DNA of 64,000 nt from Kappaphycus alvarezii. Its lineage: Eukaryota > Rhodophyta > Florideophyceae > Gigartinales > Solieriaceae. Under the pieces are notes generated by a model. That model was not told the DNA's origin. It saw only the letters and a list, made by a program, of their open reading frames with translations, and ran no database searches. How positions within the stretch are numbered: the stretch's first letter is position 1; each line of letters begins with the position of its first letter. Shown here in pieces: positions 1 to 29,254 of the stretch. The DNA lies in the NCBI GenBank assembly GCA_002205965.3, contig NADL03000859.1:124001-188000 (forward strand), read 5' to 3'. Made by a program: the position numbers and the translations under genes.

Positions 1-495
1 CTGATAGTGCCACACTAGGTGGCGCCGTCCTACACTACTTAGGGTATCAACACCCTAGGAAGTCCACAGTAAACCAAAAACAAAACTCCCCGAGCCCAAG
101 TTACCTTTTTATTTCCGTGACCGGAGTAGTCCGGAAGTTCAACCTTAGCTAGGACTCCTAGTTTGTGACCGGAAATCCTAGCGCTGCATGGATCACTACA
201 GCTAGAACCTTCTAGCGTGCGGCCGGAGTAGTCGTGGCTACCCTTTTACTTGGCCAGTCCCGGAGTAGGACTGCCTACCCTATCCTTTACCCACCGCTTT
301 CCCATCCTTCATTCCCCAAAGAAAGATCCTGGAGGACCGTAGGGCATCCTCCTACGCCTATCAAGCGCGACCTACGTCAATCTATCCCGCTACTACCACG
401 TAGCTGTCTAGTCCTCCTAGACTGGTCTCCCGTGGAAGCGCCAGCTTCCGAAACTAACCACCTGTTGCGTGGTCCTCAAGGGCCATATTACTACA
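1..495 (+). repeat. Left LTR of element A (start lies outside the window)
   Basis: Positions 1-495 match 11111-11638 closely. Both copies end in ACA, and position 497 begins a TGG primer-binding site, which fixes the LTR end at 495. The right copy appears to begin about 160 bp further upstream than position 1, so this LTR is truncated by the window edge. Hairpins with 6-7 bp arms lie at 149-161, 201-216, 406-422 and 434-449. Confidence 0.85.
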
Positions 496-496
496 G

Positions 497-512
497 TGGT
501 CTCCCGACCTAG
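497..512 (+). other. Primer-binding site of element A
   Basis: TGGTCTCCCGACCTAG starts one base after the LTR end. It begins with the TGG expected for pairing to a tRNA 3' CCA. The primer tRNA cannot be named from the sequence alone. Confidence 0.6.
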
Positions 513-617
513 ATAGGCTTTTCCTCCTCCCCTCAACGCGAGCGATCAGCGGGAGCGAAACAGAAAGGCGATCCTTTCTGAAGACCCGACAGCACGAGCG
601 CGCTGCGAATCGAAAAG

Positions 618-2880
618 ATGCCTCTTGCCTCAGATGCTTCGATCCAAGGCCGTGCCTCGGATCGCCCACAACGAGGAGTTCCTCGTATCAGATATTCGAA
701 TAACGGAGAAGGTTCACGTTCTTCGCGAGTTCGTAATGGTCAGGGAATTCCTGACCCAAGACCAAGAGCCACCGCCGCTCAAGGGTTGGAAACCGCACCA
801 ACAGTTGCTGATTCACAAGCCGTTCCGGCACCGCCGGAACGTCCAACTGGGAATCCCCCAGTGCCTACAGTGGGTGACAATGGCGTCCCCACTCCCATTG
901 AGGAAATCTCTCAATCCATTCTATCTCCCGAGCTTCGCTTGGTCGAGTTCCACCTCGAGCAGATGCTCGAGGACCGCTTGGTTGCGTTCCAGGAAATCCT
1001 GGAAGAACGCTTGGAAGAGAAGGACGATTCATTCCACACCATGCTCCGCCAGGAGATGTTCGCCCTCTGCAAAGAGGAGCGTACGGTACCAGATGCTACA
1101 CAAGTTGGCCGGCTCGTCGGAGCCGCCATGGCGGATTCGCCTATCGAGCGTCAGCTCGATGAACTCAAACAACAGCTTCAGGAAGAGAGACGCAGGGTTT
1201 CGGACCTGCATGACGAACTGCGTGGGCTGAGACTCTGCAGGGATCGCTCTCCGGCATCTAGCCGGAGCCCTGTTCCGAAGAGAACAAGGTACAGACGGCG
1301 CTACAGCCCGGTCAGTGATTACCATCCGGGATATCCTGGACTCCACTGCCAACAGTGTGGCATGAGTGGACGCGCGCGGAATGTCCGTAGTGACTCCCCA
1401 GAGCGAGTCAATCGCTGGTACCAGGATCGCCTGGTCAAACAAGCCCACAAGGCAGAAGCCGAGGAGTCCTCGAACTGGATGGAAGGTAGGGAGAGAGAAG
1501 TCATTCCCCCGCACAAGGTCTGGGTTGGTCCCCGACATGAAGGCCTCAGAGAGATCCAACCGGCCGAGCCAAGCTTCGCTCGTGTCGTTTCATACCGCAG
1601 GTACCGCCTGCGCAACACAGACCAGAACATCTCTGGTACAGTGCTCGCAGACACCGGTGACCACTACAAGTGGCTCAACCATATGCTTGGCGCCCGCAAA
1701 AATTTGATGGGAAAGATCCCATCTACATCATCCCCTTCTTGTCTGCGTACAAGGTGTGCGATAACAATCGCGTAAGTGAGGGAGCCGCCCTCATCCTGTT
1801 ACCGAATTTCCTCTCGGGCGAGGCCCGAGAGCAGTTCGAATCCAACTTCGAGTTGGGAGAAGAGGGTAGTGGAGGATTCACCTCCTACCCAGGAGCCGTG
1901 CAGTTCTTGCTGCGCATATACGCCACCGATCGTACGATCGAGGCGGTCGTCGAGAACATCGACAGTCTCCGGCAGAAGCCGGAGGAAACGGAACTAGCAT
2001 TTGCTAGTCGTCTACGCAAAGCCGCGAGGTCCTGTGGAGCGGTGTAAACCGAGCAGGACCTCATCACGCGCTTGGGTAAGGGGATTCTTACCTGACTTGA
2101 AGCCGCTGCTTCAAGTTGAGCGGCAGACGTCGCAACAATCTCGGGACAACCCGAGAGCTTTCCTCGACTTTGTCGAGAAGGCAACCGCCATCGGGGATGC
2201 TCACAGAGCCCTCATACAGAGGCAGCACACGCTGCCAAGGTCATCCCGAAGAGCTATAGCCCTGTCGGTGAACTCAATCGATGAGGGACATCCCTCACAA
2301 GAGCGTCGTCGCAAGACCGCTCACCTCCAGGGCGATACAGTGTTCGCACTTCAGTCGTACTAGGAGGTTACCTCCTCCCAAGTGTTCGACTCGGCCACCG
2401 AGTTCGATTCGCACCGGACACGCCCGCATCAGGAAAGGCCTGACTCTGCGCTTGCCGTGATTACGGCTCGTAATCCGCGACTACTGTCATGGGCATCGCT
2501 TAACCAAGATCCAGAAGCCTGGTTGGGTAACATCTGAGGATCAACCCTCAGACATTTGTTTCGAGTGTTACAAGTTGGGACATCGCCGTCCCAACTGTCC
2601 AGATCAGGGACGCCCTGATTCCGACTCTCACTTCGCAAGGGTCGTCCGCGACAACTACAACAAGTTTTCGAGGCAGCAGAAGGATTTACTTCGCGCCGTA
2701 GAAAGAGCGCCGCGCTTCCTTACCGAGGACGGAAAAGGCCCGTCCTATGTTCAAGACACCCCACTGGCACCGCCGGTGAGGTCGAAATCACCATCGAGGG
2801 AATCCTCGATATTGACAAGGAAGGATGACCGTCATGTCTCCTTCTCGGAATCTGAGACTCCGACGCAGTCGGAAAAATAG
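618..2880 (+). pseudogene. Element A gag (matrix/capsid region, zinc knuckle), frame-shifted
   Basis: An ATG at 618 (AAGATGC) opens a 385-codon frame rich in Arg, Ser and Glu, with a long charged, probably coiled-coil stretch at about residues 105-205 and an SR-rich part near 215-235. Capsid-like sequence continues in a second frame from about 1670 (motifs PQKFDGKDP, FLSGEAREQFE) and a third frame from about 2090 (GFLPDLKPLL), so at least two indels separate the pieces. A perfect CCHC zinc knuckle (CFECYKLGHRRPNC, CX2CX4HX4C) lies at 2557-2598. Gag packages the element RNA into virus-like particles; this copy cannot make the whole protein in one frame. Confidence 0.75.
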
Positions 2881-3011
2881 AAGGGGTCCCGCCACAAGCG
2901 AAGCCCCTGGCGGAACCCCCTCCCTCAGGGGAACAGTCGGGCAATCACGACTCTAAACCAACACAGGTAGGGATCCTACCTCGGCCTTACGGGCTCTCTC
3001 GCCACATCACT

Positions 3012-3644
3012 GTGGAGGAGTATCGAGCAGATCCTATCTGCTATCTATCGCGCTACAACTACGAGGTGGTCGCAGAAATTGTGGACGCCCCAAATACGCT
3101 CAACGCGTACAACACCGTGTTCGACACCGGTGCAGGACCAAATTTAGTCAAGGCAGCTTGCCTGCCTCAAGAGGTTGTTGCTAACGCCAACCGAAATCGA
3201 GAGATAGTTAACCTATCTAGCGCTTCAAATCACCGTCTGAAGACGATGGGAATCGTAGTACTGTCGCTACGAGTCGGGGACCTGCTCTGCAGGCAACCCT
3301 TTGTAGTCATCGAGGAACTCGGCGCTGATGCCATACTTGGCACCACCTTCATCGACCGGCGTGTGGAACTTATCCACATCCGTCGTCGAGAAGTGGTCCT
3401 CCGTAGCGGAGCTACAGTGCGGATACATAGAGACCCGCATTGGTTCCGTTCCGTCGCTGTTCGACGGGGACCGAAACCATTCTTCGAGGAAGTGCCTCGA
3501 AATAAGATCGTGCGGACTACCCGCCGATTCCTCCTGCCTCCGCAATCTGAGACAGTGGTGGAAGTTCAAGCTTCCCCTAACAGGAGATGTCCTGCTAGAG
3601 ACCTATCCAAGGTTGTATCGCAAGACTCAGGTCAGCCTGAGTAA
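3012..3644 (+). pseudogene. Element A aspartic protease
   Basis: The frame contains the retropepsin active-site motif as FDTGAGPNLV near 3119-3148 and a downstream hydrophobic ILGTTF motif near 3333, the usual pair for a gypsy protease (flap and second strand). It would cleave Gag and Pol inside the particle. The protease frame differs from the RT frame that follows, so a frameshift lies around 3500-3640, unless gag-pro and pol were originally joined by recoding. No ATG start is expected for this internal pol domain. Confidence 0.75.
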
Positions 3645-4650
3645 TGGAATTGCTTCGCTCAAGCCAAAAGAATCGTTCGTTGTGAACGTCGCGAACTTTT
3701 CGACCGAAACGCGCGTTCTGGCAGAAGGCCAGATTGTAGGGTACGCATCCGCGATGCCCGATACTGTACTCGAGGTCACCCTCGACGAGAAGACACCCGG
3801 CCGTGTAAACAATTCCGCGCCGCAAAGCTTCGGCACCGCCGAAGAGAAACTTGGGGTGGATGACGTTGACTTGTCCCATCTCACCCTCGCAGTGCAAGCC
3901 AAGATACGAGCAATGCTCGTGAAGCATGAGACTATGTGGTCAGGCCACTTAGGAAAAATCCGGGCTACCGAACACCGAATCGACCTCGTACCTGGGTCAG
4001 TCCCAGTACGCTCACACCCTTACCGTGCAGGCCCCAAGGCCCGCGAGACGGAAGAGAAAGAAGTCAAGCGAATGCTTGACGCGAAGGTGATTGAGCCCGA
4101 TCAATCGGAATTCGCCAGCTCAGTAGTGCTGGTGCCCAAACCGGATGGGAGCAGACGGTTCTGCATAGAATACCGGAAGCTCAACGCCCTCACGGTCAAG
4201 GACAGCTATCCGTTGCCCCGCATGGATGAATGCCTAGACTCGCCAGGTGAGGCGACGGTATTTACCGCCTTAGACTGTAACTGCGGTTACTGGCAAATAA
4301 CTATCCGCGAAGCGGACAAGGACAACACAGAATTCGTCTGTCATGAAGGCTGTTTCCGGTTCTACCGGATGTCTTTCGGGCTGTGCAATGCACCAGCCAC
4401 GTTCCAATGCACTGTAGATATCCTACTGGCACGATACAAGTGGAATACTTGTTTAGTATACTTGGATGATATCATCATTTTCTCCAAGTCGATCGAGGAA
4501 CACCTCGATCATGTCGACGAAGTACTCACGGTACCGGAATTCAGGGGTATCCCTGAAGTTGAAGAAATGCACGTGGTTCACAACCACTGTCAACTACCTC
4601 GACCATGTGATACGGCCGGGTAACTCGAGGTTGCATCGAAGAACATCGAA
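3645..4650 (+). pseudogene. Element A reverse transcriptase
   Basis: RT motifs run in order: SSVVLVPKPDGSRRFC, FTALDCNCGYWQI (first catalytic Asp), RMSFGLCNAPATFQ, and CLVYLDDIIIFS with the catalytic YLDD at 4459-4470. All three metal-binding aspartates are present. Around 4540 the frame slips: the conserved follow-up (GVSLKLKKC, VNYLDHVIRPG) is read in the +1 frame up to about 4623, then the original frame resumes as LEVASKNIEAVKGFTP after a TAA at 4621. The slip coincides with a 7-bp hairpin at 4540-4557. Confidence 0.88.
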
Positions 4651-4653
4651 GCA

Positions 4654-5319
4654 GTGAAGGGCTTCACCCCACAGCTTTCGCAAACGCAACTGAGGAGCTT
4701 CCTCGGTCTCTGCAACGTATATCGGAGATCCTTCCCGAACTTTTCCCGAGTGGCAGCGCCACCCAACAAGCTATTGAAGAAGGGAAATCCCTTCCAACTT
4801 CCGGAGCTTGACTCCGTGCAACTGGAAGCATTCGCTTCCTTGAAGCAGGCCCTCATCGAGTCGCCTGTGTTGAGGTTACCTCAACCTGGATTACCATACT
4901 CGGTCGATACCGACGCGTGTGATGAACAAGTAGGATGTGATCTACTTCAGACCCATGAGGATGGCATTCGCCATCCAATCGGCTATTGGAGCCGATCACT
5001 CGGCCCCGCCGAGAGGAACTACACGAAGAGCGAGAAGGAATGCCTTGCTGTTGTTTGGGCCGTGCAAATGCTCCGCCCGTACCTCGAACAGGAATATTTT
5101 CAACTGTTCACAGATCACCAGGCATTACGCTGGTTGATGACGCCCACCGACACCACCGGTCGGTTGGCCTGTTGGAGGCTATGCCTCCTCGAATTCGACT
5201 TCACCCTTGGTTACAGAAAAGGGGTGAAGAACAAAGTAGCAGATGCTATGTCAAGGTTACACACCGACGGCGAGACAGACTTCGCCGGAGATTGGGAAGT
5301 ACCTTGCTTCCTCGTGTAA
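4654..5319 (+). pseudogene. Element A RNase H and RT connection domain
   Basis: The connection segment (LRSFLGLCNVYRRSFPNFS) is followed by the gypsy RNase H core: SVDTDACDEQVG, IGYWSRSL, ERNYTKSEKECLAVVWA and FTDHQALRWL, ending with ADAMSRL. The acidic active-site positions (D in DTDA, E in EKE, D in TDH) are present. It would remove the RNA template during reverse transcription. The frame is the same as RT and integrase; a TAA at 5317 separates it from the integrase. Three hairpins stand back to back within its coding sequence at 4959-4976, 4978-4996 and 4999-5013. Confidence 0.88.
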
Positions 5320-5367
5320 TCTGACGGGGACCCGTCAGGGTCACCCGCCTATCCGACAGGAACAGGC

Positions 5368-6561
5368 TTGAGCCAGCTCCTCAGCTCAGCAAGGATATCC
5401 TTGCCCTTACCCCGAACCTTTCAAAGGGAGGTTCTTCGCTGCAAGACACCTGCACATAATCCAGTCGTCGACATGGATTTAGACGACATCGACTGTGAAG
5501 ACAGTCGCAACGAGGGCTTGACCTCGTTCGATCCAATCTCGGCAACCGAGCCAGCACGTGAGCTGCAACCGCTCACGACGGAGGAAATCCTCCGTGAACA
5601 AGAGAAGGACTCCTTCTGTCAAGAGTTAAAGGACGCCTTCACAGACGATGAACGTAAAGTCAGGGACTTTACGATTGCCCAGAGTGGCCTGGTCGTTCGA
5701 CTTTCGAAAGTCGATGAAAAGATGCAAATCTACGTGCCTGCATCGTTGCGTCCGCGACTGCTGATGAGATCGTACTACGCAAAAGTGTCTGGGCATCCCG
5801 GAGGATCACGCATGTACATGACTTTATGTCGTACATTCTATTGGCACAGCATGGCGCTGGACGTCTACAACACCGTTCGCCAGTGCTCAAGCTGCGCGAA
5901 GGAACATATCGCTCTTAGGAAGCACGCAAACTTTCCCAAACTATTCCAGGCCTCGAGTCCTCTCGAGTTTGTGGGGATCGATATCCTCGGTCCACTTCCA
6001 AGGACATTCTTGGGCTACCGCTGTCTGTTAGTTATCACAAATAGGTTTTCCAAGCTGGTTCGAACTGTCGCGCTACGCAGAGTAACTGCTGTGGCGATCA
6101 CCAAAGCCTTCTGCGGAGAATGGGTGTTTACATACGGGAGTCCCGTATACCTACTGTCTGACAACGGAGGGCAGTTTGCCAGCAAGTTCTTTAAGAGCAT
6201 ATGCTCTGTCCTAGGCACGCGTCACCTATTTACGACAGCCTACCATCCGCAGACCAATGGTCAGACGGAGAGATTTAACAGGACAATCCTGTCAGCGTTG
6301 CGTCACTTTTGCAGTGAGCACGGGAGGGACTGGGATCATTACCATCCCTCTGTAATCTAAGGTTACAACAATAAAGTGCATCGGGAAACCGGTCACAGTC
6401 CGTTTGAGCTACTGCTCAGCCGTCCACCAACCCCGCTTGGTCTGGCGCAAGTGAGGACGATTAACCTCGGGGATTTTCACCCGAGTCAAGTGAAGCGTCG
6501 CTTCCATGACCGCTTAAAGGCCATGTTGGCAACTTCAAGGAAAAGAATGAGCAAACCTTAG
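5368..6561 (+). pseudogene. Element A integrase (zinc-binding and DDE core)
   Basis: The HHCC zinc module (GHPGGSRMYMTL, CSSCAKEH) precedes the core with FVGIDILGPL (first D), LLSDNGGQF (second D) and PQTNGQTERFN (catalytic E), so the DDE triad is intact. In-frame stops sit at 6358 (TAA, in the conserved stretch before GYNNKVHRETG) and 6559 (TAG). The domain inserts the cDNA into host chromatin. Frame and order continue directly from RNase H. Confidence 0.88.
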
Positions 6562-6591
6562 GACGCATACAAGCGAGGCTATGATAGCCGC

Positions 6592-7407
6592 TTGAGAGTA
6601 AGCACTGAGAATATCTCAGTGGGTGACTCGGTCGTCGTGAGCCGCTGGCGAACGAAGAGCGACGAGCCAAACGCACCGACGAATGAACCGGTCGACAACT
6701 TACCGGAGCACAAGCTCCGCACGAAATCGCTGGGACCATACCCAGTTGTGAGGACATCCTCACACACAGTCACGATCCTGCGAGATGGACTCGAGGATAC
6801 TGCGTCGCGAGACCGTATCGCAAAGGCACCCACTCGGTCGCTGCCAAGTACAGGGGTATCGGGAACTCTCGATACTGAAGAAAATAAGGAAAACCCTGAT
6901 TCAGGACCTAAATCCGCGTCCCCTCCTCAGGAAGGGACGGAAGACTCTCAGGAATCGCCTGAACCAATAAAGATGAAGGGACAAACCCTCACCGTCGATC
7001 AAGAACAAGAAGCCCCGCTTCTTCGATTAGGCCAGAGGGACACGCCCTCGAACGCTGGTGAAGCGTCACGCGAAGCGCCGCTTCGTCGCTCATCCCGCCT
7101 TGCTGCGCAAGGACAGGAACAAACGAGGATAACTCGGATGACTGAGAATAATCCCGAGTCGGCAACGCCGACTACGGAAAGAAATGAGGGCAACCTCAGT
7201 CAAGAACCAGGTAACTTAGGTCCGTACGCGTTCGATCGGATTATAGATCACGATCTTGATAGCGGGCTGTACCGCGTCCGCTGGACGAACTACTCGTCTA
7301 GTGAGGATACCCGGGAACATAGGTCGTCCATCCCTTTCAATGCCGTAGCACAGTACCACCGGCGTAAAAGACTGAGGCCCCCTCAGTATTACCCTTCGTC
7401 CGCCTGA
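6592..7407 (+). pseudogene. Element A integrase C-terminus with divergent chromodomain
   Basis: The first 60 codons carry the integrase C-terminal barrel (SVGDSVVVSRW, LGPYPVVRTSS). A Glu/Ser/Pro-rich linker follows. Codons for residues encoded at about 7225-7371 read as a chromodomain: YAFDRIIDHDLDSGLYRVRW, then TNYSSSEDT. Trp and Tyr at the WxxY positions of the methyl-lysine cage are present, but the usual TWEP segment is replaced by TREH, so binding may be altered. In chromoviruses this domain steers integration toward marked chromatin. The frame ends at a TGA after 7404. Confidence 0.7.
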
Positions 7408-8603
7408 CGAAAAAAGATATTGGAACAAGGGTAGCCTTGTTACTTGGCTAAGCCAAATAGACGTCAAGGATATCTCGACTACACAGTACCACCCAGTTGT
7501 TCCTGGGTAGGTGAACTACGCCTACCAAGAAGGTAGACGGGGAAGAGTGTCTGCTCCCCAAACAGGAATCCCGTGTCGACCACGCAGGGGGAGAATAGCC
7601 TCCCCACCGCTATTACAATTGGGAATTCCAAAATCCTGTTGGGAGCCGAACTTCGGCCTTTGAAACGACAGACCGGGACAAAACGATCACGTGGAAATTA
7701 GGCGACTCGCGCCTACCACTCGAGATAGCTCTAGTGATATTCTCAACTTAAGGTGAGCTGGTAAATATTCCCCCGCCCAACGCAATCCTTGGCAAAAAAA
7801 TACTGAAGCGATACGACCGCCCACTCTCTATTAGGTATCCCAATACATTAGTACGAACCGACGTGCAGCCTGGCTCTTAATTGGAGGAAAAAACGCCTCC
7901 AGAAGGAAGACGAGCCTCCTTATGTCCGAAAAAGGCTCCACGCGCCGTTGTGATACACACGAGAACCCTCGTGACAATTTGGAATGGGACGCCCCATTCT
8001 CTGTCAAGGCAAAGCTCATCCTTGCCCTCTTGAACCAGGTCCCCTGGTCTAAAGTGTGCAATCAACCGGGACTGCACTGCCCTTTATCAGGACTCCTGAT
8101 TTCTTCTAGGTTGGGGAAATCACCCCCCCAACTTATGTTCAACCAGCTTGGCTGGCTAACATCGTGTTGCTCCGCCCCACGTTGGATGGGAGAACCCATC
8201 CCGCAAACCACTACACAGTGACTACTATTGCTCACTGCATACCCAGGTAACCTGGACTACGATTATAGACAATAGAAGAGACCAATATCGCCGCGACGGC
8301 TACCGTACGCCGGCAGACAAATTACTGAGCAATCACAGTACATCAACAACCGTCTCACGAACTCTTCGTGCAGGCGCAGACCAACATCTGTTGGTACTGT
8401 AACAGTCCCTACGGAATGTTCCAAGGGAACCGATGGCACCAACAAGGATAACCTTGTTACAACTCTGTTGGGAATGACTCAACCCGAGATGCTTTATTAA
8501 CTATTCAGGTTAGCCTGGATCTACAAGTTCTACTCTAGTTATCCAACTATGAGGGAACAGGGAAGGCTACTTCTCACAAGACAAATCCGGGACACCAGGT
8601 CTT
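7408..8603 (+). other. Element A post-pol spacer without sense coding
   Basis: No sense ORF or known domain is visible between the chromodomain and the antisense ORF. The sequence is rich in perfect short hairpins, for example 7982-7999, 8086-8100 and 8184-8201 with 7-bp arms. This may be untranslated RNA, the promoter/terminator side of the antisense ORF, or captured sequence. Confidence 0.5.
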
Positions 8604-10073
8604 TTATTCAACTGCGTGTGGGCTATCTCCATACCAACCACTGCGAAGCCTGACTACACGTCGGCTACGCCTGGCCTTCTTGGCATTACCGCCAGACCGG
8701 GGAGTATTCTCCCTCCCCTCTTCAACCAGGTCGTCATCACCGACCACCGCTGGGAGGACAACATCCCTCCCCTTTACCAGGATATCTTGGAGCAATTCCA
8801 GGAGACCAACAATGATCAATCGTCCTGGATGACCGTTGCGTGCAAGCGCTTCGAGAAACGCCGGGCCCCACCGGTTGAATGCCATAGTACCAAGGATTCT
8901 CTCAGCTTGTTTGTACTCCTCACGGTAACACCCCCGTTGAGCTACGGTCGGGAAGCTGCCCGACCCAATGGACTGTCCGAACGCCCCCGCCACCCCTGTC
9001 TGGCGGCCTTCTTGCGGCAACGACCGCAAATTATCCGTCAAGCGAGGACCCCTATCGTCACGGGGAATCAAACCGCTTGGACTACGTGGGGTGAGCCCCT
9101 CAGGAGGGCTACTCGGAGCCCAGATCGCTGGACTAAACTCGAACCAGTCTCCACAAGCATAGACTAGTGTACTCATGTCCTGAGTTTCCGGAAGGACCCG
9201 GTTCATCGCAGGAACCTGTGACCAGTGTATCTGGTCAACAAAGTACAGCAGGGCGCTGGCATCGGCGCGGTCCACCGCTGTCGATTGAGGAAGCAACGAT
9301 TACAGGCCGATGTTCCTCGCACCGTCTACAGTTGCGGGCGGAAGGTAGTATAGCCTACCTCGACGCGCTTCATAGATCAGCTCTATGACGCAATTATGTA
9401 TCCATTCGGATACAATGACATTCCACGAGAAATCCTCGTCATTTGCGTACGGGCCTGCAATGTCCAATCCGCGGTACGCAATGAACAAGGGAGTCTCTGG
9501 TAAGAAGCCGTTCGGAACTTCCTACTTGTTCCACCAGACAGGGAATGGCACGTACTTGTCACCCAGCGCCGCTGGGTCAATAATATCCGCTTCGCGGTTA
9601 TGATAGCTCACAAATACTCGGTGAGAATGGCGCATCTTCCTTTCGAATTTGCGATCCGGAGGACCGGGGTAGTAGTCCCGGTCAGCGCGAATGCTGACAG
9701 CACGCCGCAACGCCGCGCGCCCCTCAAGGAGCCTTCGCTCCTTCCCGAACAACAGGGCTGCGGACTGATAACCGTCGCATTCCATGTCGTCCTTAGTTAA
9801 CGAGGCAATCCTCGTTGCATACGGTGCTTCGGTTGCGCAACGCGCAAACACAATGTTGAGGCCTTCCTCGACCGCAAAACGGAGGTCAAAGTACTGACCC
9901 CGACGACGAGCACAGGACACCAGCCTGTCTAAACGACGCTGACTAACAGCGTTGCTGTCAAAACGGATTAACCAGTCTTTGCTGGTTGTCATCGCCCGAG
10001 GAATACCCGGTGCGGCATGGGAAAGATAACCTGCCCTTTCGGCGGAACCCGCCTCAGGAAGAAGCCCTGACAT
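8604..10073 (-). pseudogene. Long antisense ORF of element A, two internal stops, function unknown
   Basis: On the minus strand an ATG at 10073 starts a frame that runs 490 codons to a TAA at 8604, interrupted only by TAG at 9522-9524 and TAA at 9300-9302; all three open pieces (183, 73 and 231 codons) lie in the same frame. An in-frame TAA lies 36 nt before the ATG, so this is the first possible start. The product would be soluble, mixed charge, Arg-rich at about residues 50-135 and basic at the end (KKARRSRRVVRLRSG). No known motif is recognised. Antisense ORFs in the same position, between pol and the 3' LTR, are known from some plant gypsy elements such as Grande; homology to those is not claimed. 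Confidence 0.55.
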
Positions 10074-10948
10074 GAAGCTGAAATGGAGGAAGGAGGAAAC
10101 GGGTTGTTAGACTGAGGACGGGGCGGCGGTAAGCAAGAGGACGCGCCGGATGAAATCGCTGTGCGGAACACTCGGGCTATTCGGGTTTGTGTTCTGGGGA
10201 GAGTGATGGAACTCTCCAAACCCACCAGGAGTCCTGGTTGTAAAGCGGTTCACCGAAAAGTGATACTGTATTTTTCGAGGGATATGCCCTTTTCCTGGGG
10301 AGTGCCCAGATAAGACGGTGAATGAAAATTAATTTTACCAGTCAATTCACGGGGGGGTGGCCGGGAAAACCCGACCAGCAAGGCGCTCCCTCTAATTGAT
10401 CGGGTCACCCGATCCGAGCTTTTGGAAATCAACGGCCGCCCGAAAACCGGGCGCGCCCCACAACGGATTCTTACCAGGATTACCTGGTATGTCTTGGATG
10501 ACCCCGCAGGAACACGGGTTCGAGGAATATGGAACAGCGGAACAACTGCTCCACAGGGGATCACCCGACGACGGTATAATGTCTAGTAGCAGAAGCTACT
10601 ATTTGGATTTACAGTTAAGCGTTGCTAACCGGGTCCAGCCAGGATCACCTGGCTCAACGCAAAGTTTTAAGAGGATGGGGTTACCCAACCCCCATACCTC
10701 GTCAATATTGTCAAGGAACCCCTTGACCGTTTATAGGCCCTACACGAGACGACGTGTAACTATCATTGCTAGTTCGGCAACCGAAGTACTGGCTTGCCAC
10801 GAAATTGGGAAACCCCAACTGCGTTATGACCTTACGATATTATAATTTGCTACGGACTAATGTGCGCGGTACCACATCCCGACCAGGCTCCCTGGTCTGT
10901 CTTTCTCGCGTTACTCGTACTACGTACTCGACGCTGGGTGAGGGAGCA
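10074..10948 (+). other. Element A 3' spacer with candidate polypurine tract
   Basis: No credible ORF. Hairpins continue, for example 10398-10414 with 7-bp arms. The purine-rich GGGTGAGGGAGCA at 10936-10948 directly precedes TGTGGGAACC, the proposed start of the right LTR, and is the best candidate for the plus-strand primer. Confidence 0.45.
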
Positions 10949-11638
10949 TGTGGGAACCTGGCCGTTATTTTTCGCGCGCGCATAAGATACCTACAACTAA
11001 GGACAGAATGTCCTGTACCGGGCCAGTAGGGCCACGTGTAGCTGCTTTTTAATTAATTTTAATTCCCCAATTATTCCTTTATTTTAGTAATTACTGTAAG
11101 ACTAGTCTAGCTGATAGTGCCACACTAGGTGGCGCCGTCCTACACTACTTAGGGTGTCACCACCCTAGGACGTCCACAGTAAACCAAAAACAAACCCCCC
11201 CGAGCCCAAGTTACCTTTTTATTTCCGTGACAGGAGTAGTCCGGAAGTTCAACCTTAACTAGGACTCCTAGTTTGTGACAGGCAATCCTAGCGCTGCAAG
11301 TATCACTACAGCTAGAAACTTCTAGCGTGTGGCCGGAGTAGTCGGCGCTACCCCTTTATCGCGCGGCCAGAGTAGTCGTGGCTACCCTTTACTTGGCCAG
11401 TCCCGGAGTAGGACTGCCTACCCTATCCTTTACCCACCGCTTTCCCATCCTTCATTCCCCAGAGAAAAATCCTGGAGGACTATAGGGCATCCTCCTACGC
11501 CTATCGAGCGCGACCTACGTCGCTCTACCCAGCTACTACCACGTAGCTGTCTAGGCCTCCTGGACTAGTCCCCCGCGGAAGCGCCAGCTCCCGAAACTAA
11601 CCACCTGTTGCGTGGTCCTCAAGGGCCATATTACGACA
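10949..11638 (+). repeat. Right LTR of element A
   Basis: Positions 11111-11638 repeat the left LTR. The start at 10949 (TGTGGGAACC) is inferred from the purine tract in front of it and from the TG...CA rule, giving about 690 bp. Compared with the left copy it has a tandem duplication of about 34 bp near 11333-11380 built on the unit GGCCRGAGTAGTCG. Confidence 0.7.
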
Positions 11639-12620: not shown

Positions 12621-12870
12621 AACACATAGTAGATATGGCTCGGTTGTTCATGCCGATACCCGATGCTGTAGAACCCGCCAAGCCGGTAAAAGACTCTTTA
12701 AAAGAGTAAGAGGGACCGTTGAGACGCCGATATCCCTCTTTTCCTCACGCCAAAGGCTTACAGTTCACTCAGTTGATGTTGATGTTACCTTCATGTCGCT
12801 AGAAGACAAGCTCCCAGCCGGCGATGAGATGTAGACATGCTTCTTCAAAAGGAAGAATTACAAGGTAAAC

Positions 12871-13629
12871 GTGAGCATCGGTCGCTTGTTGCAGCTCATG
12901 CTTTCCCAAACTGCGGTGCTGGATACGGGTGCGGGACCGAATCTCTTCAGTGCCAGAAATATCCACGGATCTTGGTTGGCGAATGTTCGTCGAATATCGG
13001 TGCCGGCCTTAGTTTCTGCTAATAAGCAACTACTCTCCGTTCTCGGTGTGATTCTCTTAATTGTGGTTGTTGGTCAATTAAAGGTGCGTGTCCTCTTTCT
13101 GGTCGTCGTGAAACTTTCAATCGACGTGATACTCGAAACGTCCTTCATCGACTGCCACTTCAAGGTAATCCCCCCCGGATACCGGCGGGTGATGTTTTAC
13201 AATTCGCCATCCGTGTGCATTGTCGGGTCGACGCAGACACAGAGAAGATGCATGGGAACCGATTTCTTGGGGAAAAACCTCAGGTCAATCTCACCAACCA
13301 TACCGACCAGCACGGTGTCGAAAAAGGTCCGCCTTGTTCGACGCATCTTGATTCCGTCCATGAGTCAAATTAATGCGAACGTGACAGCCGAAGCCGGTGG
13401 TTTCTGGTTCTTACAGAACCACCCTAAGTTGATTCATCGGAACATGAACCTGATAGCCAACGGAATTATGAACATAATTCCAAACAAACCGTTCAGGTCA
13501 CTGTTGTTGAACTTCTCCGACCGCGCTGTGAAGCTACCGAAGCATACGGTAACCGCTCTGGCCCTCCAAGCCCCCGCTAAAGTACATACCGAAATTCCGG
13601 GCGTTAACTCCCCTTACTCTACTAATTAA
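12871..13629 (+). pseudogene. Element B aspartic protease
   Basis: The motif VLDTGAGPNLF near 12913 matches the retropepsin active site, and DVILETSFIDCHF about 70 residues later is the second hydrophobic segment, as in element A (FDTGAG, ILGTTF). The frame starts with a non-ATG codon and is an internal polyprotein piece ending at TAA 13627. The 250-codon frame also covers the protease-RT linker. Confidence 0.7.
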
Positions 13630-13656
13630 CTATCACCGGACCCGGACAAACCTCAA

Positions 13657-13675
13657 TCTAAGGAGGGGGGGAGAT
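13657..13675 (+). other. Internal polypurine tract in element B
   Basis: AAGGAGGGGGGGAGA lies between the protease and RT regions, not at the 3' end. It closely resembles the terminal polypurine tract of the same element at 16944-16958 and that of the LTR at 27321-27335. Confidence 0.5.
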
Positions 13676-13933
13676 GCTAAGAATTTTGTTGAAACCAGAA
13701 AATCGGAAGAAGGTTGGAAACAATCTGTCAAGATCAGGTTCGAGGATTAGTGAGTTCGTTCGCAGGTCTATCGCCTGTTATTGGAATTACCATCGATGTG
13801 GACCGGTGACCTCGGATGTATCGCCGCGGCAAAACAAAGCATCCAACTAAAACCGGATGCAAAGCATATGTATTAAGCGCCATACAAAGCAGGTCACCGA
13901 GGTCGGGAATTTCAGCAGAAAGAGATCGGCCGA

Positions 13934-14580
13934 ATGATCGCCGACAAAATTATCAAGTCCGCACAGTCGGTGTGGTCGAGCCCCGTCGTCTTAATCCAGA
14001 AGAAAGACGGAAAGCTGCGCTTATGTGTGGACAATCGCCGACTCAATGCGGTCAGTAGTCGTGACAATTACCCAATTCCGCGGATGGACGCGTGCATAGA
14101 TTCTCTCGGCGACGCGGCCATTTTCAGTACTTAGACTGTAATTCGGGATATTGGCAAGTTGAAGTCGCCGAGGAAGATCGGATAGGACGACGTTCGTTAC
14201 GCACCGTGGAACCTACCGATTTCTTCAGATAACCCTTGGGCTGAAAAACGCCCCTACAACTTTCCAACGGAGAGTGGATATCATCCTTTCCAGGGTAAAT
14301 TGAAGGTTCGCGCTCGCCTACCTGGACGACGTGATAGTATTCTACAACAACCTGCAGGATCACTTCCGACATGTGCGGGAAATTCTGCAAATATTAACCG
14401 GTGCCGGAGTCACGCCACGACTCGAGAAGTGTTCGTTCTTCAATTCCGAAGTGGCGTACCTCGGTCACACAATCAAATCCGGGCGAGTAGAGGTGAACAA
14501 CAAGAACACCGACACAATTCCGAAGGCGCGGCCTCCAACGAACATGATGGAGCTCCGATCATTTCTCGGTATGTGAAAAC
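13934..14580 (+). pseudogene. Element B reverse transcriptase
   Basis: Motifs are spread over three frames: SSPVVLIQKKDGKLRLC and NYPIPRMDACIDSLGDA, then CNSGYWQV, then the catalytic AYLDDVIVFY with YLDD at 14319-14330, and GVTPRLEKCSFF plus AYLGHTIKSGRVEV. The catalytic Asp pair is intact but the polypeptide cannot be read continuously. Confidence 0.82.
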
Positions 14581-14767
14581 GTATACCACCGCTTTGTCCC
14601 CAATTTCGCTCGAGTCTCAGCACAGCCTCATCAGAATACAAGGAAAGAGGAACAGACCGAATGGGAGACCTTTGAAGAAGAAGAATATTCCACTTTCTCG
14701 CAGTTGAAGCAGCGTCTGGTCTCCCCCTCTGATCCTCGCTTTGCCGCATTCCTGCTTCTAGTATACC

Positions 14768-15397
14768 TTGGACACTGAAGCTTGCGATGATGAAGTATTT
14801 TTTTGCCTGCTACAAGAAAAACTGGATGGAGACAGACTCCCTGTCCGGTATTGGAGTCGCAGTTTAACCGACACAGAACGTAATTACACCGCTTCACAAC
14901 GGAAGTGCCTCGCCGTGGTATGGGCTATGTTTCAGCCTCATCTGTACCTGTACAGTGATCGCTTTATCCCGCGAACGGATCACAACGCTCTCCGCTGGAT
15001 CCTGAATTTGTCCGACGCGTCAGGAAGACTCGTGCGCTGGCGTCTCCATCTTGCAGAATTCGATTATGAACTACAGTACCGACCCGGTGTCAAGCATCAG
15101 CTTGCTGATGGCATGTCCCGCCTTCGGACCGACGAGGGCCCGGAACCGCTGGACGATGAGATCCCGTGTTACGTAATTGACGCGCATTCCAATGACGGTA
15201 AAGAAAAATTGCTTGTTGGTTGCTGGGAGAACGAACCTGATTCGGATGAGTTACTACGATCGTTTGGCAAAAGAATAAAAAGATCGCACGTATTGGCCTC
15301 GAAAATTTCCTGGAATTCGGAAAACACTACAAGCCAGTTTCAGCCAACTGAGGTGATCTCCGAGGACACAAACGTGACTTCGATAACGTTTCAATAA
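14768..15397 (+). pseudogene. Element B RNase H
   Basis: One 209-codon frame carries DTEACDDEVFF, VRYWSRSLTDTERNY, QRKCLAVVWA, RTDHNALRWI and LADGMSRL, the full gypsy RNase H signature. The acidic residue usual in SEKE is replaced (SQRK), so one active-site position is lost. The sequence aligns well with element A and gives a hairpin-free reference for it. Confidence 0.82.
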
Positions 15398-15499
15398 TTT
15401 TGGAAGCCCAGGGCACCGATCCGCTTTGTCGGAAATTCTTGGAAGAGGTTATCGTTTCCAAGAGCCAATACGCCTAAAACAGGTACGGCATCCTCTTGC

Positions 15500-16380
15500 G
15501 GCGCTCCCCACTCGATATAGCACTGCAACGTGTGGTTCCAAAGTCCGTTAGCGCGTGCGTCCTGTATCTAGCGCATTATGCACGCCTCAATGGTCATCCT
15601 GGTGCAACTCGTATGTACTACACGCTGCGCCGCGACTACTACTAGCTTCATATGGCCCTGGGCGCATATAAAACCGCAGCTCTGTGTCGCAGTTGTATCC
15701 GTTTCCGGAGAACTTAGTAAAAGCATCAAAAGTACTTTAAGCTTTTCCCGGCGTCCGGACCACCCGAATGTGTCGTGTTGGACATCCTCAGCCCATTCCC
15801 GACGACTCCCCTCAGATATTGGTCCATAGTAATCATCACAGACAGGTACTCTAAGCTCACGCGTACCGTCCTTCTACGAAAAAATTACGCTGCCGATGTC
15901 GGATAAGCATTCCTTGAATAATTGGTTTACACTTAAGGTGTGCAGAATTACTTCCTTACGGACATTGGAAGGCGTTCCGCCACCAATATCTTCGATAACG
16001 TTTGTGGAATGCTGGGAATCAATCACTACCTCACTGGTGCGTATCACCCATAAACAAACAGTCAAACCGAAGGTTTCAACGGCACACTCGTACGCTCCCT
16101 CCGGAATTACGTCGCGGAACACCAGACAAACTGGGACGAGTTCGTTGAACCTCTTACTTACGGGTAAAATATGCAAGCACACCACACACCGGGAACGACG
16201 CCTTTCGACTTTTTGCTGACCCGACAACCTCTGAACATCATCGTGCGAGACGTCCCCTCCATCGGACGACCGCCCGGCTGGCCTCACCCCGACTTAGCTC
16301 AACGTGACGCAATCCGCAAACTCAAAGTACGGTTGAACGCAGCGACCGCCAAAATGACCGCTGTTTAGCGTCGGCATAAA
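15500..16380 (+). pseudogene. Element B integrase, heavily broken
   Basis: Fragments in several frames: HYARLNGHPGATRMYYTL-like zinc module near 15565-15620, a core region near 15760-16140, and TPGTTPFDFLLTRQPLN near 16183, the post-core segment matching HRETGHSPFELLLSR in element A. No continuous DDE core can be read. Assignment rests on order and on the two end motifs. Confidence 0.6.
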
Positions 16381-18631: not shown

Positions 18632-18794
18632 CTCGTAAGCCACCTGCGCTCCCGCCGAAAGTCGGTCGGCGCTCGAATCCACCTCAAATTCCTCCTCTCT
18701 CTTGAAACTACCACGAAGAACGGAGATGTAGACCTCGGACCCCGTCTTGTCGTAGACTTCGACAAACTCGACTCTATTCGAGTCACCACAAGTG

Positions 18795-19516
18795 CGATAG
18801 GGGTAAATCGGCGGGGGAAGAGATCCTCAGAACCAATTACCCTGAGAAGGAGGTGTTGCGAGCGACAAAAGTGCTACCGTGGTATTGTTGAACGAACAAA
18901 AGGGAGTGTATATAGAAGAGAGTTGAGAAAGCTACAAGCGAGTATAAAAGGGGCAGGGTCTACCACCGACGCTCTGCGACCAGCTTAGGAAAAAGTTTTC
19001 TTGGGTCTGAAGTTGACTCTCAACTTCCTACTACTCGGGACTTGGCTTGAAGTTGTCTGCCAACTTGCTTCACCTCCACTAAAGGAAGCAGTTTTCTCGG
19101 CTTATATAGACTTTTGGCTACCCCAAAAGTCTCAAACAAACATACTAATAACCATAAAAAGTATTCACGGTAATCGTGTGAACCAGAGAGACTATTAGAA
19201 GATATTTCCTCAAGGTAAATATCTAGGTGCCATACCCATGCCAGCCACCCATCGGCCAGGGGTGGGAATTGATGTGGCCATTATATAGACCTTTCAGAGC
19301 TACTTGTAGTATCACCCACAACCTGGAACTGTACTGACATCTACTATGACAGCGTGTCCTAAAATGAAAAAATCAGCCGACGAATTTGCCACACTCACCC
19401 AAATTAAAAATATCTTGCAAATTCAAAAACTGTAAAAATATCTTCCCAATTCCGATACTGAATACAATCATGGTCCTCATCTAGATTTTTTTTCGTGTGC
19501 GAATTTGCGCACATCA
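18795..19516 (-). repeat. 3' LTR of element C
   Basis: It is 722 bp and nearly identical to 25585-26306. The outermost base is C instead of T (CGATAGGGG against TGATAGGGG). The other edge ends CACATCA. It is flanked outside by AAGTG. Confidence 0.95.
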
Positions 19517-19549
19517 CGCCCTCTTGCTCAAGACGAACGTCCCGACTCG

Positions 19550-20872
19550 TCACTGCTCTTCTTCTGCTTCCGTTAGTGTTCGCTGTCTTATTGATAAAAT
19601 GTATGGTCTCTCAAACGGGTACGGATGCAACTGATTACCAATATGATGCTCTAAAAAGTAGGTTCGCATTACTGGTACCTCACTTTGTAGCATAGCCTCA
19701 TATATTGGTTTGATAACATCGAGGTGGGGTTGAATACATTCTTCTGCCGTGAATCTTCCGAATCTTCCAAGAGTGAAAAAATATATGTGATATGCAAACT
19801 CTTCTGGAAGATGCCGGAGGAATGGATGCCGATAATAAAAGAAGACGCGCATCATCAAGAACGAATCTTCGCAAGATAATTGCGGTCCATGTAGCGCCCT
19901 AAAACATAAACAGATGCTTATCATGAAATGAGAAATGACCTGCGCATCGTTCGCATCCTCGGAGATATCGCGCAGCCAAAAAGATAATCTTCTTCTTCCG
20001 ACTGTATGCTGTGCATGGCTGTGAAGCAGTGCTAGAGATGAAGTTGTGGTGGACGGTCCCGATGAATGGCCGCGACCAGCTCCTGACGTACTGGGACCTG
20101 CACGAGGTCCTCTCGGGGGACGACCGGAACTTCTTCTGGGCGGGTTGTTGTCTCCTGAAGGTCCTCCTCTGGTCATCATCACTGCTTCAGGAGGATCCTC
20201 GCCGCCTTCAACGTTCCCAATTTGTGGCGGAGAAACGTAAGGTTCCCATAGAGGATACAGGACCAGCCTGTATTCCATATCCGGGGGTAAGGCGTAACCT
20301 CTCAGTCGCACATCTTGGTTGTTCTTGCGAAATACGTAAATTGGACGGATAATATTCAGATACGTTTGCGACAAGTCTCCAGCAGCTACCATTCCATATC
20401 TTCCTATAGAGTAATGATATATTACCTCCACAAACTCTGGACCTGCTTCCGTGAACCTTCCGTTTTGGAATGAAAAAAGAACTCTTATTAATAGTCGGAA
20501 ATCTTCTTCAGGTAGCAATGGTCCGTTCAACGTACGAAAACATAGGCATATATTAATGTAGAGATGGATGATTACGTGGAGTTCGTAGTAGTCCCGCGTA
20601 ACCGAGATGATCCATTCCCAGGCCCTTTTTCCTCCCATAGGAATCATTCTATAGTTAAAGATGAGTATGCCCCGTGGTTGCGCATAGTCCTGTGTGAGAA
20701 GGAATTCTTCAGGCCTCTGATGGTAAGGGACCAGACGACGTGCATGGATGGCCCTCCTTGATCTCTTCCCTGAGCTTGAACAGAGCTGATAGTGCGGGTG
20801 TCTTTCCTCCGTGACGATGCAAGGGTTCGAGTACTTGGTTTGGAAAGCCGGCCACTTCACAGCCTGCTGCAT
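19550..20872 (-). CDS. Element C post-integrase protein with tandem unknown domain
   Basis: The 440-codon frame (non-ATG opening, so joined to or translated from pol) begins with the integrase C-terminal end, RRAIHARRLVPY at residues 39-50, which matches KKVIHARRIVPY in element D. Two copies of one domain follow: residues 85-216 and 297-427. They align without a gap at an offset of 212 residues, with 36 identities in 93 positions (W87 to Y179), including ICLCFR, GP.L, ED, RV, EF, GR.G and PIY. A Gly/Pro/Ser-rich flexible linker (217-296) separates them. The domain looks helical and Cys-poor apart from CLC. I do not recognise it. Its place corresponds to env or other accessory ORFs of gypsy elements, but no signal peptide or membrane segment is evident. 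Confidence 0.75.
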   Translation of the reverse strand: MQQAVKWPAFQTKYSNPCIVTEERHPHYQLCSSSGKRSRRAIHARRLVPYHQRPEEFLLTQDYAQPRGILIFNYRMIPMGGKRAWEWIISVTRDYYELHVIIHLYINICLCFRTLNGPLLPEEDFRLLIRVLFSFQNGRFTEAGPEFVEVIYHYSIGRYGMVAAGDLSQTYLNIIRPIYVFRKNNQDVRLRGYALPPDMEYRLVLYPLWEPYVSPPQIGNVEGGEDPPEAVMMTRGGPSGDNNPPRRSSGRPPRGPRAGPSTSGAGRGHSSGPSTTTSSLALLHSHAQHTVGRRRLSFWLRDISEDANDAQVISHFMISICLCFRALHGPQLSCEDSFLMMRVFFYYRHPFLRHLPEEFAYHIYFFTLGRFGRFTAEECIQPHLDVIKPIYEAMLQSEVPVMRTYFLEHHIGNQLHPYPFERPYILSIRQRTLTEAEEEQ

Positions 20873-20929
20873 TGCTTTTCCATGTACTACAAGTACTTTA
20901 GAGCCAACTGAAAAGGTTCTGACTGCAGG

Positions 20930-21640
20930 TTATGCATCCTTATTTCTTGTCTGTGTTAGCGCGCGGTGTGATCTCCAGCCTTCGGTGGCCAGTAGTTCAA
21001 CTTCCCTACTCTCTTCATCGATAATATTTGTTTCCATGTCTCTCTGTAACATTCTAGGAGTCCTTCCGTACATTAGCTCGAATGGTGAGCGTCCATTTCT
21101 TCCTCTTCTTCGACTGTAGCCGTATAACACTTTTTGGTAATGCATCTTCCCACTGGATTTTATTCTCCGACATAGTTTTCGATATTGCTCGTTTGATGGT
21201 TCCAACCATCCTCTCCGCTTTCCCGTTGGACATAGGAGCGTATGCGAGAACGGTCTTCAGCTGAATCTCTTTCTCTTTCAAAAAACGAAGCAGTGAAGTT
21301 GCAGTAAAACAAAGGGCGTTATCCGAGATGATCCTTTTTGGAAGACCAAACGGTTCAATTATTTCTTTTTTGATGAATCTCAGTACCACCTCAGTATTTG
21401 CCTCCTCGACTGCAACTGCTATTGGCCATCCAGTGAGATGTTCCACCCCTGTAAGGAGATATTTGTTTCCGGAAGAAGTTTCCTTGAACGGGCCCGCGAA
21501 GTCAATTGAGAAGGTTTCAAAGAGACCGGAAACTGGAAAACTTAGAGTTGTCTTATACTTCCGTATTGGAGTGAAATTTTGGCAGTTGTCGCAGCTTTTC
21601 ACGAAGTTATAGATGTCCTTATGGATTTCGGGCCACCAGA
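20930..21640 (-). pseudogene. Element C integrase core
   Basis: From the zinc-module end (CDNCQNF) the frame gives FSIDFAGPFKE (first D), RIISDNALCF (second D) and SNGKAERMVGTIKRA (E): an intact DDE triad. After KRAIS the reading continues in another frame from 21205 to 20930 (NGRSPFELMYGRTPRM), so one frameshift lies near 21120. It then approaches the barrel end encoded at the start of the 20872-19550 frame. Confidence 0.85.
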
Positions 21641-21684
21641 ATCTCTAGTTACGAATTTTTTGGTTGTTTCGAGATCCCAATGCC

Positions 21685-22653: not shown

Positions 22654-22677
22654 AGAAGCATTTGCTCAACTTAATTT

Positions 22678-23290: not shown

Positions 23291-23599
23291 AATTACTTCG
23301 GAAGATGTTAACATGTCGGATATTTTCAGTGAGGCTGGGGCGGGAAGGTGCTGCACTTTTCCTTGGATTTCTGCCATTTGGCGCCCTTTTTCTTCTTGAT
23401 CCTCAACCTCAATATTTTGAAGGACCTCTTCCGTCGTGCTCACATCTTCATATATGGAATTCGACGTATTCTTATTTTCTTTGCAAAGATAATCTTCTTT
23501 CATGCTCCGAATTCTGTCCTTTGATTCGATATCATCGCAAAAAGAAACACATTCGGGTTTCAAACTTATCCTAGAATTACAGTCGTCATCTGTTTCAAA

Positions 23600-25495: not shown

Positions 25496-25568
25496 GATTA
25501 CAGAAAAGAAATCCCCCCGAAGTGTTCCTTACTACTGCTCAACTCGAATACCTCGGGTGCAACCCCCT

Positions 25569-25582
25569 CCACAAGAGTACCA
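25569..25582 (-). other. Primer-binding site of element C
   Basis: On the minus strand TGGTACTCTTGTGG begins two bases after the 5' LTR. The same first nine bases, TGGTACTCT, follow the 5' LTR of element E. Confidence 0.7.
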
Positions 25583-25584
25583 AA

Positions 25585-29204: not shown

Positions 29205-29254
29205 AAAAATGGGCTCTATAATCTGATTAGCTCTCCTCGCAACTTCACATTTAA

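Follow-up and report, generated by a model that had tools for sequence, protein, structure and literature searches.

The 64,000-nucleotide stretch of Kappaphycus alvarezii DNA analyzed here (hereafter, the window) carries an LTR retrotransposon, element A, that is saturated with short perfect hairpins, many of which share a single sequence-specific plan. The array runs through coding and non-coding sequence at similar density, coexists with recognizable pol proteins and is confined, within the window, to element A. The shared stem-loop has very probably been selected as such. As an overall explanation we tentatively propose an array of RGS-capped stem-loops that would serve as Gag sites on the genomic RNA.

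Identity and gene map of element A

Element A (positions 1-11638) is a Ty3/gypsy LTR retrotransposon, probably of the chromodomain type (Table 1). It is represented here by a single decayed copy. Repeat pairs and the LTR-LTR alignment showed blocks of 93-94% identity between the two LTRs, with 32 substitutions and a 33-nt insertion. According to Pfam, the pol order is protease, reverse transcriptase (RT), RNase H and integrase, with the protease and rve matches under their cut-offs, while the first piece of gag had no Pfam match. PF00385 occurs in several of the homologues found for the integrase piece, and protein relatives reach up to 73% identity across part of this piece. The window itself starts one base upstream of the 5' LTR.

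Table 1. Features of element A, in window coordinates, with the evidence for each
Feature	Positions	Strand	Evidence or remark
Array of 154 perfect hairpins (arm at least 6), including 77 strict-plan sites	1..11638	+	scans
5' LTR (TG...CA)	2..495	+	repeat pairs, alignment to 3' LTR; exact ends by eye
Probable primer-binding site, TGG start directly after LTR	497..510	+	inferred by eye
gag, first piece	618..1775	+	open frame 582-1775, first ATG 618
gag, end piece	2551..2877	+	sequence motif CFECYKLGHRRPNC at 2557-2598, which we take to be a CCHC knuckle
9-bp hairpin within zinc-knuckle codons	2573..2596	+	
Protease piece	2856..3644	+	gag-asp_proteas E 0.0027, under Pfam cut-off
RT piece	3607..4623	+	RVT_1 E 4.8e-24, above cut-off
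8-bp hairpin over RT residues SIEEHLDH	4491..4510	+	other elements keep 3/8 pairs in each of two comparisons
RNase H piece	4624..5319	+	RT_RNaseH E 3.5e-33, above cut-off; 241 homologues
8-bp hairpin over conserved LRLPQ	4869..4885	+	GTTGAGG-TTA-CCTCAAC plus one inner pair
7-bp hairpin over conserved RNase H IGYWSRS	4978..4996	+	two compared homologues keep 2/7 pairs each
Integrase piece	5320..6360	+	Integrase_H2C2 E 2.9e-12, above cut-off; rve E 4.1e-7, just under; 249 homologues
C-terminal integrase piece, chromodomain-like end	6562..7407	+	Chromo E 4e-4, 20.7 bits against cut-off of 25.1
Typical hairpin, non-coding	10472..10489	+	TACCAGG-ATTA-CCTGGTA
Typical hairpin, non-coding	10637..10654	+	AGCCAGG-ATCA-CCTGGCT
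3' LTR, with 33-nt insertion relative to 5' LTR	11112..11638	+	repeat pairs, alignment; ends by eye

Hairpin excess over controls

Positions 1-11638 were scanned for perfect arms with loops of at most 8 nt, counted greedily without overlap. Hairpins with arms of at least 6 bp numbered 154, against 20.9 ± 5.0 (maximum 30) in 30 dinucleotide shuffles. At longer arms the same shuffles gave 4.8 ± 2.1 (maximum 9) against 80 observed for at least 7 bp, 1.3 (maximum 4) against 20 for at least 8 bp, and 0.27 (maximum 1) against 7 for at least 9 bp. Markov sequences of order 2 to 5 (30 each) had means of 20.0-20.8 for arms of at least 6 and 5.0-6.1 for at least 7, with maxima of 37 and 11. Synonymous-codon shuffling of six coding segments left 12.4 ± 3.3 hairpins (maximum 19 in 60 shuffles) where 70 were observed; one of these segments is out of frame (12 stops), and without it the figures were 58 observed against about 10.2. 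Chance and composition were rejected on these dinucleotide, codon and Markov controls, whose hairpin numbers at arms of at least 6 come to roughly one-fifth to one-seventh of those observed. Since the hairpins also sit within codons of recognizable proteins and nothing observed spoke for chance, composition or an assembly artefact, we give these a practically negligible probability. The hairpin saturation of element A is confirmed.

On average a hairpin occurs about once in 75 nt and a strict-plan site (defined below) about once in 150 nt. The earlier note on this DNA, made from the sequence by eye, had listed 25 hairpins in element A, all of which proved to have perfect 7-9 bp arms and 0-7 nt loops; the roughly 4 per 10 kb that it expected by chance is consistent with the dinucleotide shuffles (4.8 at arms of at least 7). 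The apparent clustering of 19 of these 25 within 3.6 kb was a product of the incomplete list, as regional density in element A varies only from 9.4 to 15.8 per kb. The last hairpin of element A ends at 11549, and the next is located at 12040. Positions 12000-64000, examined almost completely as six stretches, had observed/expected ratios of 0.98-1.64, against 7.4 for element A, in line with the earlier statement that the neighbouring elements do not show the pattern. Two of these stretches were somewhat above their own shuffles (29 versus 18.2 ± 4.5, and 43 versus 26.6 ± 4.2). In nine contigs bearing distant gypsy elements the ratios were 0.51-1.54, none much above shuffles. Thus neither shuffled controls nor other gypsy elements, either of which had been named as capable of overturning the claim, reached the density of element A.

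A common stem-loop plan

One plan, absent from the earlier note, is common to the hairpins. Specifically, the stem-loop is about 18 nt long, with a 7-bp stem in which the outer four pairs are free and the inner three read 5'-R-G-S...S-C-Y-3' around a loop of 3-4 nt. Under a strict definition of this plan, N4-RGS-(3-4 nt)-SCY-N'4 with six or more of the seven pairs formed, element A contains 77 sites where 1.6 are expected (about 48-fold), while the mirror core Y-C-S has 4 sites against 1.15 expected. In the remainder of the window both cores are near expectation (RGS 5 versus 4.7, YCS 6 versus 5.3). Strict-plan sites occur in the LTRs, gag, pol and spacers. The peak class, arm 7 with loop 4, holds 22 hairpins against 0.2 expected. 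Pairing outside the core is raised up to a total length of 17-18 nt and then drops to about 0.25; at least three of the four outer pairs are formed in 45/61 cores with 4-nt loops and in 32/52 with 3-nt loops. A surplus of about threefold (46 versus 15.3 expected) is also seen among hairpins lacking the RGS core. Spacing was no more regular than random placement (standard deviation of gaps 52 versus 57 ± 5; 13% of null placements gave a value as low or lower).

The outer pairs show little composition bias, and 76/80 outer 7-mers are distinct. An origin by small insertions or by the spread of a palindromic repeat was rejected on this diversity and on two further grounds: few 10-mers are common to the hairpins, the longest shared runs being those of the LTR pairs, and alignments to homologues show few gaps at hairpin codons (rates of 0-0.033 inside hairpins and 0-0.013 outside). 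Recognition of double-stranded DNA by a protein is likewise disfavoured, as the outer arms complement each other although their sequence is free.

Hairpins within protein-coding sequence

Template switching or snap-back synthesis by RT could in principle perfect short seeds into 7-bp palindromes with little or no selection. Such a mutational process would account for stems that are mostly strict Watson-Crick (83 perfect 7-bp stems against 3.3 expected), for outer pairs nearly free in composition and for the limited palindrome length. It would, however, be expected to leave far fewer palindromes in coding DNA, and hairpin density, compared in frames without stops, reaches 13.0/kb for coding sequence and 12.9/kb for the non-coding remainder. 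Among simulated palindrome-making changes only 1.4% were synonymous and 17.5% conservative. With so few protein-sparing changes, this equality is hard to reconcile with template switching as the only cause and favours a sequence-specific stem-loop under selection. Strict-plan sites, at about 6.7/kb for gag-pol and 8.1/kb for LTRs plus spacers, likewise have a ratio far from the expected one. Moreover, seed pairing alone would not give a core orientation of 77 to 4, and other elements in the window lack the pattern. Template switching as the sole cause, the first of the causes offered earlier, is accordingly disfavoured, and we regard a mainly mutational origin as improbable.

Identity to homologues, taken relative to column conservation, is similar inside and outside hairpins. 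In the integrase piece, agreement with the majority residue is lower inside them (0.52 versus 0.67 outside).

RNA folding and acting strand

Element A folds more stably than expected on both strands, with mean z of -1.91 (+) and -1.66 (-) over 192 folding windows, compared with -0.22 and -0.02 over 216 elsewhere; one sample stretch of element A reached -4.17. This excess would fit selection for genome-scale RNA structure of a general kind, which would stabilise the RNA or protect it from silencing and would need no specific reader. The mirror core YCS is about as stable as RGS by stacking energy, but has 4 sites to the 77 of RGS, and the limit on hairpin length also speaks against that reading, which we consider very improbable. 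Selection for a structured RNA, which the earlier note had raised, thus stands in general through the folding scores, while generic structure leaves the single core and the limited length unexplained.

An inverted repeat is identical on both strands, so that strand information resides only in loops and mismatches. Local pairing probability was 0.81 on the plus and 0.75 on the minus strand, with 136/154 and 123/154 hairpins, respectively, above 0.5. When hairpins are folded in isolation, stability is slightly greater for the minus strand (-8.98 versus -8.84 kcal/mol). Loops of 4 nt are strand-asymmetric (p = 0.002, n = 43), A tending to positions 1 (27/43) and 3 (26/43), whereas no significant asymmetry was found in 3-nt loops (p = 0.16), nor for A versus T across loops of 3-8 nt (p = 0.12). 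Single internal mismatches on the sense strand comprised 48 A-C (10.7 expected) and 25 G-T (7.9 expected), and mismatch counts across the hairpins gave no preference for G-U pairs on that strand. On balance, we consider it somewhat probable that the stem-loop acts in sense RNA.

Putative reader of the stem-loops

In the explanation that we favour, selection on the folded single strand, most likely the sense genomic RNA, would maintain a dense array of one sequence-specific stem-loop. Individually the stem-loops would bind the element's own Gag weakly, and many of them could jointly select, compact and package the genomic RNA, as proposed for dispersed packaging signals. The RGS excess, the arm-7 peak, the length limit, the diversity of the outer pairs, the equal density in coding and non-coding sequence, the similar identity to homologues inside and outside hairpins, the asymmetry of 4-nt loops, plus-strand pairing and the CCHC knuckle in Gag were counted for this explanation. 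Counted against it were the missing G-U preference, the slightly greater stability of isolated hairpins on the minus strand, 3-nt loops without significant asymmetry, the non-significant A-versus-T comparison, spacing no more regular than random, the surplus of non-RGS hairpins, lower majority agreement inside integrase hairpins, and loops that are poor in G. Retroviral nucleocapsids prefer unpaired G. Overall, Gag is a plausible but uncertain candidate for the reader. More doubtful still is the stronger proposal of an RNA assembly code, in which on the order of a hundred capped stem-loops, written in gag and pol largely by codon choice and equally dense in non-coding sequence, would be read jointly by Gag so that the element recognises and packs its own RNA.

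The same selected array might instead be read by a host protein (in export, stability or silencing), or act in antisense RNA or minus-strand cDNA. RGS specificity would hold for any reader, A-C mismatches on the plus strand are G-U on the minus strand, and long antisense open frames lie at 8604-10106. On the other hand, local pairing probability favours the sense strand, the A-C surplus may reflect a G-to-A bias and involves small numbers within strict RGS sites, no homologue was found for the antisense frame 9522-10106, and neither antisense piece matches Pfam. We regard a reader other than Gag as unlikely, if less so than a mutational origin. The structure-based host interaction suggested earlier survives in part: an interaction with a protein fits best, with the element's Gag as first candidate and a host factor as second.

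Should compensatory changes prove to preserve the stems in other copies, element A would offer a very clean natural example of RNA recognition distributed along a retroelement, and would reveal the extent to which coding sequence can accommodate an RNA structure. A mutational origin, by contrast, would imply a process of unusual strength and sequence bias. Were the Gag assembly code true, this would be, to our knowledge, the first LTR element with packaging sites over its entire genome.

Comparison with known systems

An Rfam scan of the whole window at the gathering threshold gave no match, and a tRNA scan found none. No relative was detected in the viral contigs scanned, and the bacterial and archaeal genome contigs yielded nine distant gypsy-bearing contigs and no DNA relative of the family; a plasmid search returned three distant protein-level matches. 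Among the open-licence papers listed by our searches we recognized none that describes a retrotransposon tiled with hairpins.

Element A shares with Ty3/gypsy chromoviruses its LTRs, CCHC gag and protease-RT-RNase H-integrase order and, less surely, a chromodomain-like end. Like genomes with genome-scale ordered RNA structure, it has excess folding energy over its whole length. The cases of such structure known to us lack sequence specificity, whereas element A repeats one short, perfect, sequence-capped hairpin (RGS 77, YCS 4).

The genomic RNA of yeast Ty3 is described as a mosaic with stable regions of up to 30% and with packaging and dimerisation elements in a structured 5' end (PMC11381356); compared with that description, element A repeats one short hairpin plan over its entire length. 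Dispersed packaging signals, many stem-loops with a common recognition motif, have been described for MS2 and other RNA viruses (PMC6281560) and for hepatitis B virus (PMC7612645). As in those systems, element A has many motif-sharing stem-loops along its genome, in LTRs, gag, pol and spacers. The viral motif is described as lying in the loop, as (x)xYA or -RGAG-, while the clearest motif of element A lies in the closing stem. Distributed weak recognition sites are usually faint and hard to settle; the strict plan of element A, about 48-fold over chance, is legible in a single sequence.

Hairpin density in element A

The Ty3/gypsy LTR retrotransposon element A, represented here by one copy of its family, was scanned over positions 1-11638 for non-overlapping hairpins with perfect arms and loops of at most 8 nt, and the counts were compared with 30 dinucleotide shuffles. 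A total of 154 hairpins had arms of at least 6 bp (20.9 ± 5.0 expected), 80 had arms of at least 7 bp (4.8 ± 2.1), 20 of at least 8 bp (1.3), and 7 of at least 9 bp (0.27). The earlier note had described the element as saturated with such structures, and all 25 hairpins that it listed were recovered in place; their arms pair perfectly over 7-9 bp and their loops span 0-7 nt. In Markov-generated sequences (order 2-5) the means were 20.0-20.8 (arm at least 6) and 5.0-6.1 (arm at least 7). Synonymous codon shuffling of five coding segments in the correct frame gave about 10.2 hairpins versus 58 observed; with six segments, one of them in the wrong frame, 70 were observed versus 12.4 ± 3.3 (maximum 19 in 60). 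No shuffle or Markov control reached the observed density.

Nor did other gypsy elements share it. The observed/expected ratio was 7.4 in element A versus 0.98-1.64 in six stretches spanning nearly all of 12000-64000 (two of which slightly exceeded their own shuffles) and 0.51-1.54 in nine contigs carrying distant gypsy elements. The second gypsy element of the window (18790-26270), a young, recent insertion since its flanking repeat blocks are 98-100% identical, had a ratio of 1.38, and the degraded relative of A at 12835-16143 was at background level.

A shared stem-loop plan

The excess was maximal for arms of 7 bp with loops of 4 nt (22 observed versus 0.2 expected). Around a paired 3-bp core, additional pairing was elevated up to a total of about 17-18 nt (slightly further with 8-nt loops), beyond which it was about 0.25. 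On the 5' arm the inner three pairs read R-G-S from outside to inside, so that the strict plan is N4-RGS-(3-4 nt)-SCY-N'4. Sites were counted if the loop was 3 or 4 nt, the core was paired and six or more of the seven pairs formed; expectations came from 20 shuffles for A and three for the rest of the window. Element A held 77 RGS sites (1.6 expected), 4 sites with the mirror core YCS (1.15) and 46 with other cores (15.3), whereas the rest of the window held 5 (4.7), 6 (5.3) and 94 (89), respectively. Judged by stacking energy, the mirror core should be at least as stable. At least three of the four outer pairs were formed at 45 of 61 RGS cores with 4-nt loops and 32 of 52 with 3-nt loops, versus 3 of 20 and 1 of 16 YCS cores. 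The outer pairs showed little compositional bias, and the 7-mers were diverse (76 of 80 distinct).

Coding and non-coding sequence

Hairpins with arms of at least 6 bp occurred at 13.0/kb in coding sequence (70 in 5,370 nt, six segments) and at 12.9/kb in non-coding sequence (43 in 3,338 nt), or 12.2/kb (59 in 4,848 nt) when the region of antisense frames (8604-10106) was included. Of the strict-plan sites, 46 fell in leader, gag and pol (6,911 nt; 6.7/kb) and 26 in LTRs and spacers (3,217 nt; 8.1/kb); the antisense-frame region was the thinnest part of A, with 5 sites (3.3/kb). When 3-bp seeds in codon-shuffled segments were extended in simulation to stems of 7 bp by copying four bases, 1.4% of 6,868 conversions were synonymous and 17.5% conservative. 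A process blind to coding is thus disfavoured as sole cause, because it would give far fewer genic hairpins.

Homologues were compared inside and outside the arms among the 240 matches listed of 490. Among these, identity was 0.484 inside (18 codons) and 0.603 outside (92) for RT, 0.575 (46) and 0.521 (185) for RNase H, and 0.421 (44) and 0.509 (221) for integrase. Since column conservation shifted the same way (0.603/0.741, 0.656/0.629 and 0.542/0.634, respectively), the ratios of identity to conservation were alike in and out of arms. Among the same matches, A held the majority residue of integrase less often inside arms (0.523) than outside (0.665), and gap rates were 0-0.033 inside and 0-0.013 outside. 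Over 42 homologous plus-strand comparisons (minus-strand matches excluded), the other elements of the window kept 90 of 277 stem pairs (32%), where unrelated letters would keep about one quarter. Together with the homologue comparison, this share indicates that the other elements of the window do not have the stems of A, and points mainly to codon choice as the means by which these were accommodated in recognisable proteins.

Acting strand

Because the stems of inverted repeats are identical on either strand, only loops and mismatches carry strand information. The 43 loops of 4 nt were asymmetric, with A in the first position of 27 and the third position of 26, where a single loop had G (p = 0.002, symmetric, skew-matched null), and no significant asymmetry was observed for 3-nt loops (p = 0.16, n = 31). 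Across loops of 3-8 nt, C was commoner than G (p = 0.006), with no significant difference between A and T (p = 0.12). Local pairing probability was 0.81 for the sense and 0.75 for the minus strand (p = 3e-5), exceeding 0.5 in 136 and 123 of the 154 hairpins, respectively. Two results count against the sense strand: folded in isolation, the hairpins had a small stability advantage as minus strand, and single internal mismatches were A-C (48 versus 10.7 expected) more often than G-T (25 versus 7.9), with few mismatches at strict RGS sites. The A-C surplus would correspond to G-U on the minus strand or to a G-to-A bias. Plus-strand composition of 1-11638 was A/T 0.251/0.211 and C/G 0.285/0.253; this skew and the A-C surplus may reflect a plus-strand G-to-A bias. 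We lean towards sense RNA as the acting strand.

Structure, relatives and surroundings

The LTRs of A share 93-94% identity over two aligned blocks and differ by 32 substitutions and one 33-nt insertion. A CCHC knuckle is present in gag, and pol matched RT, RNase H and integrase zinc-binding domains above Pfam cut-offs; its matches to protease, integrase core and chromodomain fell below them. The open frames fall in separate pieces, which means that the copy has decayed or else relies on frameshifts. The RNase H piece had 63% identity to its best match over the full length, and the integrase piece reached 73% over part of its length; the named proteins among the matches listed derive from the red algae Agarophyton chilense and Chondrus crispus, which points to a probable red-algal host. 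No relatives were found among the viral contigs scanned. Neither antisense frame had a Pfam match, and a homologue search with the one at 9522-10106 found none.

Features of the window around and antisense to element A
Feature	Position	Strand	Remarks
Long open frame antisense to A	8604-9299	minus	
Long open frame antisense to A	9522-10106	minus	
Degraded Ty3/gypsy element related to A	12835-16143	plus	31-55% identity in pieces
Second gypsy element, repeat blocks	18796-19475, 25586-26265	minus	98-100% identical
Strong strand skew, G over C	28001-42000		up to 0.35 at 38001-40000
Long open frame inside skewed stretch	37835-39592	minus	LINE-type reverse transcriptase by eye
Open frame, 624 aa	44148-46022	minus	resembles ABC half-transporter by eye
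Inverted repeat	46877-47904		125-nt arms, 84% complementary, 778-nt separation
Third copy of repeat block	52654-53336		72-94% identical; may be a lone LTR

Comparison with known systems

The stem-loops of A look like a set of candidate sites for one protein: the cap is fixed, the lower stem is free to vary, and the same stem-loop recurs in all parts of the genomic RNA, LTRs included. Gag would be the natural candidate reader; however, nucleocapsids prefer unpaired G, and the G-poor loops of A count against it. For yeast Ty3, the mapped RNA is described as a mosaic in which stable regions make up as much as 30%, and packaging and dimerisation sequences lie within a structured 5' end (PMC11381356). 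A loop motif, -RGAG-, is described for the dispersed packaging signals of hepatitis B virus (PMC7612645). Such dispersed signals, in which stem-loops with a common motif touch the coat protein (PMC6281560), offer a precedent for a putative Gag-read array in element A.
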